Shown here: positions 27,733 through 32,478 of the stretch, piece by piece | Position numbering within the stretch: position 1 is the stretch's first letter | How the letters are laid out: every line of letters begins with the position of its first letter | Origin: Bacteroidales bacterium | Lineage (GTDB): Bacteria > Bacteroidota > Bacteroidia > Bacteroidales > VadinHA17 | Assembly: GCA_017882305.1 (NCBI GenBank) | Contig: JADGPU010000032.1 | Location: 1-32,478, forward strand | Direction of reading: 5' to 3' | Length of the DNA: 32,478 nucleotides | The notes under the pieces: generated by a model | The model's database searches: none | What the model was told of the DNA's origin: nothing | What the model saw: only the letters and a program-made list of their open reading frames with translations | Position numbers and translations under genes: made by a program

Positions 27733-27753
27733 TTAACCGCAAAGCGTGCAAAG
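27733..27753. repeat. Partial copy of the CGCAAAG repeat
   Basis: TTAACCGCAAAGC is identical to the left end of the element at 31848-32000, followed by a second imperfect unit (GTGCAAAGG). No matching right end is nearby, so this is a half or decayed copy. It lies in the 180-nt gap between the permease and the serpin, where nothing else clear is seen. Confidence 0.6.
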
Positions 27754-27797: not shown

Positions 27798-29042
27798 TTA
27801 CTCAGCCAGTGGATCGACGACTCTTCCCATAAAAAGTATAGAATTGGTAGTTGTTTCTCGTATAAAGTAAAGGAATGAATGGTCGATATTCATAATAAAA
27901 GGACTAATTATTGCAGTAGGTTCTAAACCGACTACAGTGGCAGCGGCTGCTTCCGTACCTTCTTCATTCGTTTCAATAAATGCCTGGTGTTTAACAAAAC
28001 TTATCAAAAGACTGATATCCGATATATTTGAAAAATCAGCATTATCTGTAAAAGCTATTCCCATTCCCATATCGGTTAAAATATCCTTAAGTTCCTTTTT
28101 GTACACATATTTAAATCGTGGAAATGTAAGATCGGTCTTTTTTTCATACATCTGACTGAGCCAGCTTTTTAGACTATTGTCATTTAACAATGGTAATATG
28201 TTATTAATTCCATTATTATCGACAGGAAGGATCACATCCATCACGAAATTGCCCTGACCATATGGAAATTCAGCTAAAGTAAATCCTTCCCCATTATAAA
28301 TCTTAAACTCAGAAGTCTGTTTCATCATTGGAACCTGGGCAGTTTCTCCACCCGGTTTATAAAATGGTCCCTGGACAGTATTGTTTTTATCAAACTGAGA
28401 ATTCCACTTTCCTTTAAAATAAATTGCATTAATCAGAAGCATCACAGTACTGCTATCCAGTTTGTCAATCATATTCTTTATCAATCCGTTTGTTTTACTA
28501 TCAATCCAACTGTTAATCTGTGTTGGTACCAGAGGATCTGTAATGTCAAATGACTTTGATTCAGCAGTATAATATTGGGTAAGTATATCTTTGAAGGGTT
28601 TTTTTACGACAAAATTTTTCTCGGTCCATAAAGAATTGGCAATAGAGATTAAAACCCGTTTATCGACATTCAGGAGTGCCTGAGTAAGAGTCTTATATGA
28701 GTTATTGATTATATCCGGTGTTAATCCATTCACTCTTAAAGCATCAAGCATTGCATCGCGGGTGGCTCCGTTAGCGCCGTTAAGTGTCATTGAAAGGGCA
28801 GATGAAATGCTGAGAGGGGAGATGATGACATTCTCTGATTCAACAGAATTTTCTATAACCTTTTTGAAGATATCAAGCGCAAAAGAATTTTCTGATGAAA
28901 TGAGTGAAATCTGATCGGTGGTAAGATCTATAGGAACAGGAGCAGTCGGAAAAGTTTCAGCAGGTTCCTTTTTACATGAGAAAAAAGTCAAAGGAATTGT
29001 GAATAATAATGCAATCGCGGCTTTGAAAATAACTTTACTCAT
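27798..29042 (-). CDS. Serpin-family protease inhibitor, lipoprotein
   Basis: 414 residues from the ATG at 29042; a GTG at 29051 is in frame, but AGGTGAGG (29046-29053) is a Shine-Dalgarno sequence placed correctly for the ATG. A lipoprotein signal (hydrophobic 4-20, FFSC, Cys23) puts it in the envelope. The serpin fold follows from about residue 40, with NVIISPLSISSALSMTLNGA, LLINAIYFKGKW and the C-terminal HSFLYFIRE and ILFMGRV. The reactive loop has an inhibitory-type hinge EEGTEAAAAT (360-369), small residues that let the loop insert. By alignment to alpha-1-antitrypsin the cleaved bond would be near Thr376-Ala377. It probably protects the cell from outside serine or cysteine proteases. 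Confidence 0.93.
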   Translation of the reverse strand: MSKVIFKAAIALLFTIPLTFFSCKKEPAETFPTAPVPIDLTTDQISLISSENSFALDIFKKVIENSVESENVIISPLSISSALSMTLNGANGATRDAMLDALRVNGLTPDIINNSYKTLTQALLNVDKRVLISIANSLWTEKNFVVKKPFKDILTQYYTAESKSFDITDPLVPTQINSWIDSKTNGLIKNMIDKLDSSTVMLLINAIYFKGKWNSQFDKNNTVQGPFYKPGGETAQVPMMKQTSEFKIYNGEGFTLAEFPYGQGNFVMDVILPVDNNGINNILPLLNDNSLKSWLSQMYEKKTDLTFPRFKYVYKKELKDILTDMGMGIAFTDNADFSNISDISLLISFVKHQAFIETNEEGTEAAAATVVGLEPTAIISPFIMNIDHSFLYFIRETTTNSILFMGRVVDPLAE

Positions 29043-29045
29043 AAT

Positions 29046-29053
29046 CCTCACCT
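29046..29053 (-). promoter_or_regulatory. Shine-Dalgarno sequence of the serpin
   Basis: AGGTGAGG lies 3 nt before the ATG at 29042. It is unusual in this window, where nearly all genes lack such a site, and it decides between the ATG and the upstream GTG, which lies within it. Confidence 0.6.
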
Positions 29054-29138: not shown

Positions 29139-29699
29139 CTAAAATTTCTTTTTTCGTTTTTTTGAAGTTTCCTGATATGCCCTGAGATAAATAAATGATA
29201 CTACAAAAAAGACCATACCCAGGAAAAGAAGCATTATAAAAGCGAAAACTGATGGTTTTTCCAGTCCGGGGATAGGGTGTTTCAATCTGAAGGTATATCC
29301 ATAAACAGTATAACTCAGAACCATTATAGAGACTATAAAACTGAAAATTATTGTCGTCCCATCAAAGATTCTGGTGGTTTTGTAAAACTGCGTGTTCTTG
29401 AATGTTCCATAGGAGGTTCGGGCATATACCGTAGCTCTTTTTCGAGACCTGTCCTGCCTGTATTTTCTCCAGTTTTCCATTGCCTGCTGGTATGCCTGAT
29501 CATCAGTTTTGATCTTTTCTTGATTTGCCATTAAAAACTCGTAGGCTTCGGTTATGTTTATAAAATGATCCTTTGCATCAGGGGCGGGATTAATATCGGG
29601 GTGGTAAAGGCGCGCTTTTTTCCTGTACGCTCTTTTTATCTCTTCGATTGTAGAATTTGCCGGCAGACCAAGAATTTCGTAATAATCTGTAAGTGTCAT
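29139..29699 (-). CDS. Membrane-anchored J-domain protein
   Basis: 186 residues. A J domain (1-65) has the essential His-Pro-Asp at 33-35 (LYHPDINP) and normal helices (YYEILGLPANSTIEEIKRAYRKKARL). Then comes a basic, Tyr-rich linker (70-112) and two membrane helices (about 113-133 and 150-172), with a basic tail. J domains stimulate the ATPase of Hsp70 (DnaK); here the chaperone would be recruited to the inner membrane. The class-I DnaJ zinc finger and substrate domains are absent. It starts 4 nt after the recG stop, so the two are in one operon. The client is unknown. Confidence 0.88.
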   Translation of the reverse strand: MTLTDYYEILGLPANSTIEEIKRAYRKKARLYHPDINPAPDAKDHFINITEAYEFLMANQEKIKTDDQAYQQAMENWRKYRQDRSRKRATVYARTSYGTFKNTQFYKTTRIFDGTTIIFSFIVSIMVLSYTVYGYTFRLKHPIPGLEKPSVFAFIMLLFLGMVFFVVSFIYLRAYQETSKKRKKKF

Positions 29700-29703
29700 G
29701 TTT

Positions 29704-31815
29704 TCAGCTTATGTTACTCCACGATTGCTTCTGACTGAAAAGTCTTTTTAATTCGGATCTCAAGACCAGGTTCTGATTACTTTCAAGTAAAGGATCGAGG
29801 TTAATTATCTCTTCAGCAATATGTCTTACATATTCAATTAATTGTCCGTCTTTACCAAGGTCAGCAATCTTCAGGTCAAATGGAATACCACTCTGTAATG
29901 TTCCTTCAATATCGCCCGGACCCCTTAGCTGAAGATCAGTCTCGGCAATCTCAAAACCATCATTGGTACTGATCATTACTTCAATTCTTTTTGCTGCTTC
30001 TCTTGAAAGTTTATTGGAACTCATAAGTATACAATATGACTGATCTGCACCTCTGCCGACACGTCCTCTCAACTGGTGCAATTGTGAAAGACCAAATCGT
30101 TCTGCACTTTCAATAACCATTACGGTTGCATTTGGTATATCAACGCCAACCTCGATGACTGTTGTTGCAATCAGGATGTGAGCCACTCCATCCTTGAACA
30201 GTTTCATAGACATCTCCTTATTCGACGGGGTCATCTTCCCATGAACAATGCTTAGACAGTATTTTGGAGCTGGGAAGACTCTTGAAATAGTATCCCATCC
30301 ATCCTCAAGATCTTTATAATCCATCGTTTCAGATTCTTTGATAAGAGGATATACAATATAAATCTGACGTTTTTCAGCTATCTGGTTCCTGATAAATCCA
30401 AAGACCTTATTTCTTTCTGAATCAGTAAAATGCATTGTTTTTATTGGAACTCTTCCCGGAGGTAGTTCATCGATCACTGAAACATCCAGGTCTCCGTAAA
30501 GTGTCATCGCAAGAGTTCTTGGAATGGGAGTGGCTGTCATAACAAGAATGTGCGGAGGATTGAGGTTTTTTTGCCATAGTCTGGCCCTCTGGGCAACTCC
30601 GAACCGGTGCTGTTCATCGATAATCACCAGTCCAAGATTGGCAAACTGAACATTTTCTTCAAGGAGAGCATGAGTACCGATAAGTAAATTCAGCGATCTG
30701 TCGAGCAGTGATTCAGCAATTAATTTACGGGAGGACTTTTTTGAGGAACCTGTAAGCAGACGTATTTTAATGTCAATTCCCTCAAGTAATTTACAGATAG
30801 TCTGATAATGCTGGTTTGCAAGGATTTCGGTGGGAGCCATGATACATGCCTGATAGCCATTGTCTGTCGCAATAAGCATACTCATAAGGGCAACAAGTGT
30901 TTTCCCGCTACCTACATCTCCCTGAAGCAGCCGGTTCATTTGTTTTCCTGAACCAAGATCTTTCCTTATTTCTTTCATTACTCTTTTCTGAGCATCAGTA
31001 AGAGTAAAAGGTAAGTTGTTATAATAAAAATTATTAAAATTTTCGCCTACACTTGAAAAAATAAATCCCTTAAATTTCAAACTACGGTTTGTTTTAAATC
31101 TCAGGAGGTTAAGCTGGATATAAAAAAGCTCTTCAAATTTCAGGCGGTGTCTAGCCTTTTCAAGCTCATCAGGATTAGCCGGGAAATGGATTTTATGGAG
31201 TGCGTCATGAAGTTCCATAAGTTTAAAACGTGAAACAAGGTAGACAGGTAATGTCTCAGGCAATCTTATTTTAACTTGTTTCAACATATTACCTATCAGC
31301 TTACTGATTGTTTTTGATGAAACAAACTGATTTTTAAGTTTTTCAGTAGTGCTATATTGTGCCTGAAGAGCCGAATTTAGTCTTTCTGCCATCTTATCGG
31401 CAGCTTCAATTTCAGGATGAATAATGTTAATGATCCCGTTAAAAACACCTGGTTTTCCAAACACTATGAATTCAACTCCGGGGCTGAAGCTTCCGGTGAT
31501 CCATTTTCCACCCTTAAACCATACCAGCTTTAAAGTTCCCGTATCATCCTGAAAATCAGCAACCAACCGTTTCCCGACTCCATGACCTTCCGTAGAATAT
31601 CCTTTTATGATACCTTTTATCTGAACAAATGGAAGGTCGGGATCAAGTTCAGCAATCTTATAAAATCTGGTTCTGTCAATATACTTGTATGGGAAATAGT
31701 ATAGCAGATCGCGGAATGTAAAAACACTCAACTCTTTATTAAGTAGTTCAGCTCTTTTTGGGCCAACTCCCGATAAATAGGTAATGTTAGTATCTAAAAA
31801 CTCCTGTTTAATCAT
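29704..31815 (-). CDS. recG: ATP-dependent DNA helicase RecG
   Basis: 703 residues from the ATG at 31815. The frame can be read back to TTG 31857, but those codons run into the CGCAAAG repeat and the ATG gives the normal start. RecG reverses stalled forks and branch-migrates Holliday junctions. Numbering from the ATG: N-terminal part with YLSGVGPKRAELL (13-25), wedge/OB domain (about 60-140), helicase motif I GDVGSGKT (299-306), motif II DEQH (400-403), motif III TATPIPRTLAMT, and the later QLRGRVGRG. All look intact. It is the first gene of an operon with the J-domain gene, and its upstream region is largely the repeat element. Confidence 0.97.
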   Translation of the reverse strand: MIKQEFLDTNITYLSGVGPKRAELLNKELSVFTFRDLLYYFPYKYIDRTRFYKIAELDPDLPFVQIKGIIKGYSTEGHGVGKRLVADFQDDTGTLKLVWFKGGKWITGSFSPGVEFIVFGKPGVFNGIINIIHPEIEAADKMAERLNSALQAQYSTTEKLKNQFVSSKTISKLIGNMLKQVKIRLPETLPVYLVSRFKLMELHDALHKIHFPANPDELEKARHRLKFEELFYIQLNLLRFKTNRSLKFKGFIFSSVGENFNNFYYNNLPFTLTDAQKRVMKEIRKDLGSGKQMNRLLQGDVGSGKTLVALMSMLIATDNGYQACIMAPTEILANQHYQTICKLLEGIDIKIRLLTGSSKKSSRKLIAESLLDRSLNLLIGTHALLEENVQFANLGLVIIDEQHRFGVAQRARLWQKNLNPPHILVMTATPIPRTLAMTLYGDLDVSVIDELPPGRVPIKTMHFTDSERNKVFGFIRNQIAEKRQIYIVYPLIKESETMDYKDLEDGWDTISRVFPAPKYCLSIVHGKMTPSNKEMSMKLFKDGVAHILIATTVIEVGVDIPNATVMVIESAERFGLSQLHQLRGRVGRGADQSYCILMSSNKLSREAAKRIEVMISTNDGFEIAETDLQLRGPGDIEGTLQSGIPFDLKIADLGKDGQLIEYVRHIAEEIINLDPLLESNQNLVLRSELKRLFSQKQSWSNIS

Positions 31816-31847
31816 TTGAAAAAACCCTTTAGGATTTTGATTTTTTT

Positions 31848-32000
31848 TTAACCGCAAAGCACGCTAAGCTTATCTTCACCATATCTCGACTAAATATAAG
31901 ACAGATTCTGTAAGTAAAGAAGATGTAAAGTACGCAAAGACAATTTCATAGTTGATGTCTTTGCGATCTTTGCGAAAAACTTTGCGACCTTTGCGGTTAA
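31848..32000. repeat. CGCAAAG palindromic element, 153 bp
   Basis: Perfect 12-bp inverted ends (TTAACCGCAAAG at 31848-31859, CTTTGCGGTTAA at 31989-32000) bound the element. Inside is a hairpin with near-perfect 16-nt arms (31927-31942 and 31956-31971, 13-nt loop). The right side has four CTTTGCG units starting at 31959, 31968, 31980 and 31989, spaced 9, 12 and 9. There is no transposase frame. It could be a small non-autonomous mobile element or an expanded palindromic repeat. It lies between the divergent recG and methyltransferase genes; a half copy is at 27733. Confidence 0.75.
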
Positions 32001-32024
32001 TGGATTTCATTATCCGAAAATACG

Positions 32025-32032
32025 TATTTTTG
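32025..32032 (+). promoter_or_regulatory. Candidate promoter of the methyltransferase (TATTTTTG)
   Basis: TATTTTTG matches TAnnTTTG, 33 nt before the ATG at 32066 and just outside the repeat element. Confidence 0.5.
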
Positions 32033-32065
32033 AAAACCTGTCCTAATTATAATGTCAGCACTGAA

Positions 32066-32478
32066 ATGATTTTTTCCCGAGCAGTCAAATATCTGAACTA
32101 TATTCTGCTATCACATCACCGGGAGGGGCATGGAATACATAGTCCATTCGTTTTTGATCTTGTGTCAAGAATCTTCAGGAATAAAATTGATCCTGCAATT
32201 TTATTTACCGTTGAACGGGTTAGAAGGAAGATGATCTCAGATAAACGAAGCATATTGGTTAAGGATCTTGGTTCCGGGTCAGGATCATTGAAAACAAATT
32301 TAAGAAGAGTATCCGATATTGCCAGATATTCAGCGGTTCCTGAGAAATATGGCGAATTATTGTCAAGAATGGCTGCTGAATTCGGCAGACCACTGATAAT
32401 TGAATTAGGCACATCTTTGGGGATAAGCACACTGTACATGGCAGCCTCCTGTGCAGATACAACAGTGTGCACAATAGA
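32066..32478 (+). CDS. Class I SAM-dependent methyltransferase (3' end cut by window)
   Basis: 137 codons are visible before the window ends. The ATG at 32066 is chosen because the nearby ATG at 32052 meets a stop after five codons. The N-terminal signature GHGIHSPFVFDLVSRIF (21-37) is typical of a Bacteroidetes methyltransferase family, followed by VKDLGSGSGSLK (65-76) and the SAM-binding motif I LIIELGTSLGISTLYMA (110-126). The family resembles O-methyltransferases; the substrate is unknown. The frames on the opposite strand here are shadows. Confidence 0.85.
   Translation, partial: MIFSRAVKYLNYILLSHHREGHGIHSPFVFDLVSRIFRNKIDPAILFTVERVRRKMISDKRSILVKDLGSGSGSLKTNLRRVSDIARYSAVPEKYGELLSRMAAEFGRPLIIELGTSLGISTLYMAASCADTTVCTI

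Follow-up and report, generated by a model that had tools for sequence, protein, structure and literature searches.

In following up a 153-bp hairpin element beside recG in a Bacteroidales draft genome, we found that it belongs to an interspersed repeat family with conserved boundaries, and that the inverted heptamer arrays forming its arms also enclose GxxExxY genes in other genomes. Its status as a non-autonomous repeat that moves or amplifies is well supported, and we regard it as most probably the counterpart, lacking an ORF, of a hairpin element that carries a nuclease gene. As a hairpin of the MITE or REPIN type it is ordinary; its array arms, and its link to a nuclease family that occurs with such arms across phyla, are unusual. 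The repeat family, its boundaries, its polymorphism, the register shared with gene-bearing elements, the wide association of heptamers with GxxExxY genes, and the nuclease fold with its catalytic residues are established by the data below. The features that the text refers to in the window (the whole 32,478-nt stretch of DNA analyzed) are as follows:

31848..32000, no strand: CGCAAAG hairpin element, 153 bp, that is, the canonical 104-105-bp form plus ~49 extra nt
31848..31868, plus strand: left arm, TTAAC followed by CGCAAAG (31853-31859) and CGCTAAG (31862-31868)
31869..31916, no strand: extra segment, between heptamer positions two and three of the left arm
31927..31971, no strand: inner hairpin, which includes CGCAAAG (31933-31939), the innermost heptamer on the left
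31959..32000, minus strand: right arm, CTTTGCG at 31959, 31968, 31980, and 31989, then GTTAA
32001..32008, no strand: flank TGGATTTC, conserved outside one end type, GAAATCCA/TTAACCGC
32009..32033, plus strand: block ATTATCCGAAAATACGTATTTTTGA, lying before the right-hand gene
27733..27744, plus strand: single end TTAACCGCAAAG, partner end absent
29704..31815, minus strand: recG, the left neighbor, with RecG_wedge, DEAD, and RecG_dom3_C domains

A family of heptamer-armed hairpins and its turnover

The element, which lies 32 nt from the recG start codon, ends in perfect 12-bp inverted repeats (TTAACCGCAAAG at 31848-31859 and CTTTGCGGTTAA at 31989-32000), and its extended 27-nt arms are 81% complementary. 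In the inner hairpin, positions 31927-31942 pair with 31956-31971, and the four CTTTGCG units of the right arm start in a 6/15/27/36 register counted from the element end. The inverted ends, the inner hairpin, and the four CTTTGCG units are present where the sequence-only reading had put them, and no ORF of 100 aa lies inside 31848-32000. With 8 nt added on each side, the element folds better than 200 of 200 dinucleotide shuffles (z = −6.1 as DNA and −5.3 as RNA). The region 31600-32200 has no match up to E = 1 among 4,227 Rfam models.

In the 3.45-Mb draft genome there are 52 exact copies of the end TTAACCGCAAAG and none of a reversed-pattern control, so the family is not a product of chance, and the possibility that copies would be absent elsewhere in the genome is ruled out. 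After perfect partner ends were merged, these occurrences mark 42 places, of which 25 are two-ended (80 to 183 bp, the partner end differing at no more than two positions) and 17 are single-ended. The usual copy measures 104 to 105 bp and consists of four heptamers, a loop of ~20 nt, and four inverted heptamers, with the consensus CRCNRAG. The 153 bp that had been given as the element size thus hold for the window copy but not for the family: alignment of the 25 two-ended copies placed ~49 extra nt in the window copy, and the stretch 31869-31916 is covered by none of the 82 other matches listed (40 of 61 candidates scored), which span positions 1-27 and 63-153 of the window element only. Two end types can be distinguished, GAAATCCA/TTAACCGC and a T-rich type, and conservation falls off beyond both, in agreement with the conserved boundaries looked for. 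Because the 12-bp anchor was itself used for selection, the independent evidence for these boundaries lies in the flank and the second word only. None of the 42 copies lies within a long ORF (at least 150 aa), even though ORFs of that length take up 79% of these loci. What had been read as a half copy at 27733 does have 13 nt (TTAACCGCAAAGC) in common with the 153-bp element, but no partner end with at most two mismatches was found within 1.5 kb inward, and it is a single or decayed end. Between this end and recG lie a gene for a serpin-family protein (27801-29051, minus strand; PF00079, 382 bits) and, adjoining it, one for a DnaJ-domain protein (29139-29699).

Several copies harbor further repeats. 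A second small hairpin, of the TCCACCTCCGCTAAAGCTTCGGTGGA type, sits between arm words two and three at L021, L022, L060, and L096, and is common to ORF-less copies (on contigs C83, C84, and C127 of the window's genome) and the GxxExxY element L096 of genome G031. Another repeat, of the CCCCCTTTAGGGGGG type, occupies the interior of CGCAAAG elements at L134, L136, L141, and the C82:14398 copy (L018), which suggests that unrelated repeats have inserted, one within another, at these spacers.

Left and right arm words of one element resemble each other, with a distance of 0.83 compared to 1.67 after shuffling (n = 50; 0/5,000). Words start 9 nt apart in 80 cases and 10 nt apart in 77, followed by 11 nt (27 cases) and 12 nt (24 cases), so that the commonest spacing, 9 to 10 nt, amounts to about one helical turn. 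Mismatches between the arms of 64 elements comprise 106 G-T and 107 A-C pairs along with 339 others; this symmetry gives no sign of selection for a sense RNA hairpin. An RNA-level hairpin was rejected for want of any G-U excess over A-C, and the likelier selected feature is a site at the DNA level.

Among related genomes, the family comes and goes. At least one exact end is present in 45 of 60 genomes (the window's own included), and the number per genome within the genus is patchy, ranging from 0 to 52. We compared the recG spacer of the window's genome with that of 16 congeners (17 of 30 loci): it is short and array-free in nine congeners (L135, L138, L140, and L144-L149), holds an array or array-derived sequence with other interiors in L134, L136, L139, and L141, and holds other sequence in L137, L142, and L143. 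Several species have thus had an array here, and its interior has been exchanged. The proposal that the element stands in for the usual sequence upstream of recG holds only in part: the spacer beside recG varies among the congeners read, and the block before the right-hand gene (TATCCGAAAATACGTATTTTTG) is intact just beyond the element. The block ATTATCCGAAAATACGTATTTTTGA is recognizable at the window's own locus and the 16 congeneric ones, whether the element is present or not. Elsewhere, the window's genome has a copy at site C171b, where G017 and G020 have no array; the site is taken by other sequence in G006, G031, and G034, and occupied by a different array in G005. The copy at site C3b is common to the window's genome and G034, where it has drifted to the word CACAAAG, and is absent from G031, G017, and G020; the one at site C171a is common to the window's genome and G008 and has decayed in G006. 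Site polymorphism and patchy copy number together agree with an element that is mobile or has been gained and lost repeatedly. The earlier suggestion, a non-autonomous repeat that moves or amplifies, is therefore upheld, by 42 places with conserved boundaries, none in a long ORF, and by polymorphic insertions.

A distant relative, G051, has 147 exact ends. These were left out of the family because the 20 loci read there (L163-L182) mostly show a different repeat of ~150 bp, GGCTACC...GGTAGCC (GGCTACCAGTTTTAAGTTAGCC ... CTGACGGGTAGCC), with a CGCAAAG/CACAAAG array inside.

GxxExxY genes between the same arms

The enzyme gene that was found with matching arms, in genomes other than the window's, encodes a GxxExxY/PDDEXK_3 nuclease. 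In the window's genus, the loci L096 and L082 each have a GxxExxY gene surrounded by CGCAAAG arms; their left arms have the 6/15/27/36 register of the window element's right arm, and the arms of L096 align to copies in the window's genome over 66 bp at 80% and over 42 bp at 88 to 89%. The ORF-less repeat and the gene-bearing element thus have their arms in common, with the GxxExxY gene where the loop would be, and L096 and L082 are candidate autonomous partners. A tblastn comparison of 91 query proteins with the 42 places in the window's genome found no gene remnants in ORF-less copies; two weak matches (E = 0.005 and 0.013) revealed no visible gene on inspection.

More generally, across the window's genome and those of 18 relatives, GxxExxY (PF13366) loci usually have flanking inverted repeats, which at 18 of 25 testable loci exceed 99% of 603 control positions; 6 of 31 PF13366 loci and 1 of 32 PF05635 loci were excluded for lying near contig ends, and the underlying table keeps some wrong gene calls on truncated contigs. 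The S23/IVP (PF05635) loci of the same genomes are likewise usually flanked by inverted repeats, which are built of other words and exceed 99% of the 603 controls at 20 of 31 testable loci. As a partner of CGCAAAG arrays, the S23/IVP gene was rejected, with at least two CRCNRAG words on both sides at 0 of 26 loci and on either side at 2 of 27. Its short-word arrays are often inverted and vary by locus, including GTGAGG, CAATCAC, GGTATAAT, and AACTTTA (among others at L070, L103, L108, L109, L110, L122, L125, and L129), and at L071 (G000:C9) an S23 gene within CCTTAACCTTAGCC word arrays stands beside what appears by sequence to be an IS3-type two-ORF transposase.

The association of heptamers with GxxExxY genes extends well beyond the window's genus. 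We collected the best 80 of 584 GxxExxY loci from species genomes, ranked by similarity to L096, and the sample therefore leans to that part of the family; by their record titles they come mostly from Bacteroidota but also from Planctomycetota, Acidobacteria, Cyanobacteria, Ignavibacteria, Anaerolineae, and others. Among these best 80 of 584, 71 of 80 have at least two CRCNRAG words within 150 nt on at least one side, a measure that has no control of its own, and 35 of 77 have them on both sides, compared to 1 of 1,683 control positions. Words in the expected orientation number 1.83 per flank upstream and 2.29 downstream, compared to 0.084 and 0.096 in the control, an enrichment of more than 20-fold on both sides. 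Words in the opposite orientation are raised to a smaller extent (0.74 and 0.73 per flank compared to 0.092 and 0.083), and the arrays are thus not strictly inverted. The same words emerged unprompted among the four commonest 7-mers beside the gene in these best 80 of 584: CACAGAG at 29 loci (0 in a smaller control with one position per locus, where room allowed), CACAAAG at 27 (2 in the control), and CGCAAAG at 26 (0 in the control), the remaining one being ATTTTTT (26 loci compared to 11). Word counts excluded loci near contig ends (3 of the 80 named loci, 1 of 18 in relatives, and 1 of 27 S23 loci) and, for the latter two sets, used loci with a clean gene call (18 of 31 and 27 of 32, respectively). 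In the relatives, 11 of 18 GxxExxY loci have at least two words on a side, and some others use kindred words, such as CACGGAT at L078; in a small separate set of plasmid records, only 4 of 8 have at least two words on a side.

By family, residues, and fold, the GxxExxY protein is a single-domain PD-(D/E)XK (PDDEXK_3) protein and a predicted nuclease. The L096 protein scores 142.9 bits against TIGR04256 (cutoff, 35) and the L205 protein 136.8 bits against PF13366 (cutoff, 22). In an alignment (A2) of 65 of the 74 usable proteins, D67, E77, and K79 (E77-x-K79) are invariant, and H88, Q91, and the GxxExxY motif are also kept; 6 of the 80 named genes (best 80 of 584) have in-frame stops and were left unaligned. 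An AlphaFold2 model (pLDDT, 96.3) has as its best solved structural match SSO0001 (Z = 9.9 over 101 residues; rmsd, 4.2), which we take to be a Cas4-type nuclease, followed by restriction-enzyme-fold nucleases and Hjc resolvases tied near Z values of 6 to 7. A Foldseek search of the PDB with the model returned nothing at E = 0.001 or better, and a PDB sequence search with the GxxExxY profile returned nothing up to E = 1.

How the arrays may spread

The reading that we place first, at slightly under an even chance, is that the ORF-less CGCAAAG element is a non-autonomous member of a hairpin-element family spread by the GxxExxY nuclease. In this family each arm comprises about four heptamers in a 9/12/9-nt register, with an inverted array across the loop, and in ORF-bearing members the GxxExxY gene occupies that loop. 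We infer that the nuclease recognizes the words and drives their spread: it would bind the heptamers and cut the arrays or nearby DNA, and break repair would then copy the arm-loop-arm unit into new intergenic places or other arrays. The ORF-less copies, having kept the words, could be mobilized in trans, much as a transposase mobilizes MITEs.

That gene and arms can move together is suggested by two loci of G047, L349 and L350, which are 91% identical over 481 bp comprising gene and arms, with no further match between them at E = 1e-12; identity limited to gene plus arms indicates that a discrete unit was copied. Given their arm word, ATTACACAGA, this case bears on GxxExxY units generally and not on CGCAAAG ones. 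The arm word also tracks the protein tree, with 26 changes compared to 39.3 after shuffling (74 labeled rows; 0/500 shuffles as low), and does so within Flavobacterium (2 compared to 4.6; 11 rows; 2/500) and within the window's genus (3 compared to 4.9; 10 rows; 15/500). This tree, from which six proteins with in-frame stops were excluded and in which 17 of 91 rows (fewer than three words) are unlabeled, is poorly resolved, with 45 of 88 inner branches drawn open. Part of the concordance is joint inheritance at one locus, as at the syntenic site of L073, L075, L082, L089, and L096.

A PF13366 match is absent in 4 of the 18 array-bearing relatives searched, which have 49 (G012), 23 (G006), 13 (G024), and 12 (G026) exact ends in drafts that are 81 to 96% complete, and the single GxxExxY gene of the window's genome has arms of other words. 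A resident enzyme is therefore unnecessary for copies to persist, and a resident GxxExxY may not be what amplified them. The notion that arrays are more numerous where a matching GxxExxY gene lives was discarded, as end counts do not correlate with PF13366 matches.

Copies that lack a resident matching gene keep in play a second reading, possible but in our judgment rather unlikely, in which the arrays spread through other machinery and GxxExxY, acting as a homing-type nuclease, inserts into them with the arms as repair homology. Those four array-rich genomes would fit it, as would L073, where a CACAGAG-armed GxxExxY unit is nested between the two ends of a CGCAAAG element, and the site shared by five congeners named above, where the GxxExxY elements differ in words and sequence. 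Among the best 80 of 584 loci, moreover, the gene lies between direct repeats (score of at least 20) at 15 of 78 (2 of the 80 being too near a contig end), compared to 2 of 1,367 control positions. On inspection of the alignments these repeats mostly hold array words, and at L354 the gene lies between direct repeats of other words; such repeats would be expected after break repair or after unequal exchange between arrays. A PD-(D/E)XK homing endonuclease, I-Ssp6803I, is known (PMC3943268), and, as the available text describes it, resembles GxxExxY in being encoded inside the sequence that it would recognize. GxxExxY differs from homing elements in that there is no intron, intein, or conserved host gene and the putative site is a repeated array. 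Against the homing reading, no other array machinery was found, and L349 and L350 were duplicated as gene plus arms into unlike flanks.

MITEs of insertion sequences are small, ORF-less, interspersed, non-autonomous repeats with inverted ends, and the element's shortness, inverted ends, intergenic placement, and patchy copy number would suit descent from a classical insertion sequence with a transposase gene that has been lost or has escaped notice. We consider this improbable. The ends of the element are word arrays, in contrast to MITEs, and no transposase was found between candidate partner ends in the window's genome: when its 17 single ends were followed ~1.5 kb inward (one for only 35 nt), two candidate partners appeared, one of them belonging to the next element and the other at 1.1 kb, and the long ORFs in between are TIM-barrel and phosphoesterase genes. 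Neither was a target-site duplication seen, the empty sites of congeners being too divergent around the junctions to define one.

An equally small likelihood attaches to an immobile, host-kept repeat, serving in many copies as a terminator, regulator site, or nucleoid-protein site. The absence of copies from long ORFs would suit it. The available text of the relevant reports annotates tandem heptanucleotides of Geobacter as putative global regulatory elements or regulator sites (PMC2700814) and considers a possible role in translation control for the TAACTGA heptamers of Beggiatoaceae (PMC4679880). Insertion sites that vary between congeners, end counts that run from 0 to 52 in a single genus, and the flanking of a nuclease gene by such words across phyla argue against it.

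Mobilization of a REP/REPIN by a RAYT (TnpA-REP) enzyme, as invoked in the sequence-only reading, is largely refuted and very improbable: the inverted arrays, hairpin, intergenic placement, and many copies are REPIN-like and the genome has four Y1_Tnp matches, but none of the four loci carries the TTAACCGC end, only one CGCAAAG word occurs in their 11.4 kb, and the two loci viewed whole have other palindromes beside the gene.

Relation to known systems and significance

The element has the REPIN-type layout of an extragenic inverted doublet able to form a hairpin, and shares with REPIN/RAYT systems the intergenic inverted doublets, the hairpin, a high copy number, non-autonomy, and a small enzyme encoded elsewhere (PMC3116915). 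It differs in its arms, which are heptamer arrays where a REPIN has one palindrome of 20 to 40 bp (PMC3733652), and in its associated enzyme, a PD-(D/E)XK nuclease as opposed to a Y1 tyrosine transposase. The GxxExxY element, for its part, recalls the intervening sequence (IVS) of 23S rRNA with its S23p gene, which is likewise a stem-loop of inverted repeats whose loop encloses a small gene for a single-domain protein, is seen as selfish and of unclear origin, and in several Coxiella strains has three tandem GACAGAT heptamers just before S23p (PMC4990558). Unlike GxxExxY elements, the IVS lies inside rRNA and is excised by RNase III, and S23p is a four-helix bundle (PMC4990558). That the window element is itself such an IVS was rejected, given the lack of an Rfam match, recG on its left, and no 100-aa ORF inside it. 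Similar in sequence organization are the heptanucleotide families of Geobacter metallireducens and Beggiatoaceae, with many 7-nt arrays, some of them inverted (PMC2700814, PMC4679880), which in Beggiatoaceae are mostly intergenic, as in the CGCAAAG family (PMC4679880). Their words differ and they are described as regulatory, and the available text of these reports mentions no link to a nuclease gene (PMC2700814, PMC4679880). In the accessible open-licence literature, we found no published explanation of CRCNRAG arrays or GxxExxY genes and no published link between heptamer arrays and GxxExxY, PF13366, PDDEXK_3, or TIGR04256.

More tentatively, and with a probability that we put well below even, inverted arrays of CACAGAG, CGCAAAG, CGCAGAG, CACGAAG, and kindred words could constitute a self-spreading class whose heptamers are read by GxxExxY, with the S23/IVS elements as a parallel class in which the words change freely. 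On one hand, the tie between arrays and GxxExxY provides a candidate enzyme for the repeats; on the other hand, it provides a candidate substrate for the enzyme. If spread by the GxxExxY nuclease is borne out, it would offer small DNA elements a route to spread without a transposase, and word-array elements would represent a transposase-free kind of bacterial mobile DNA.
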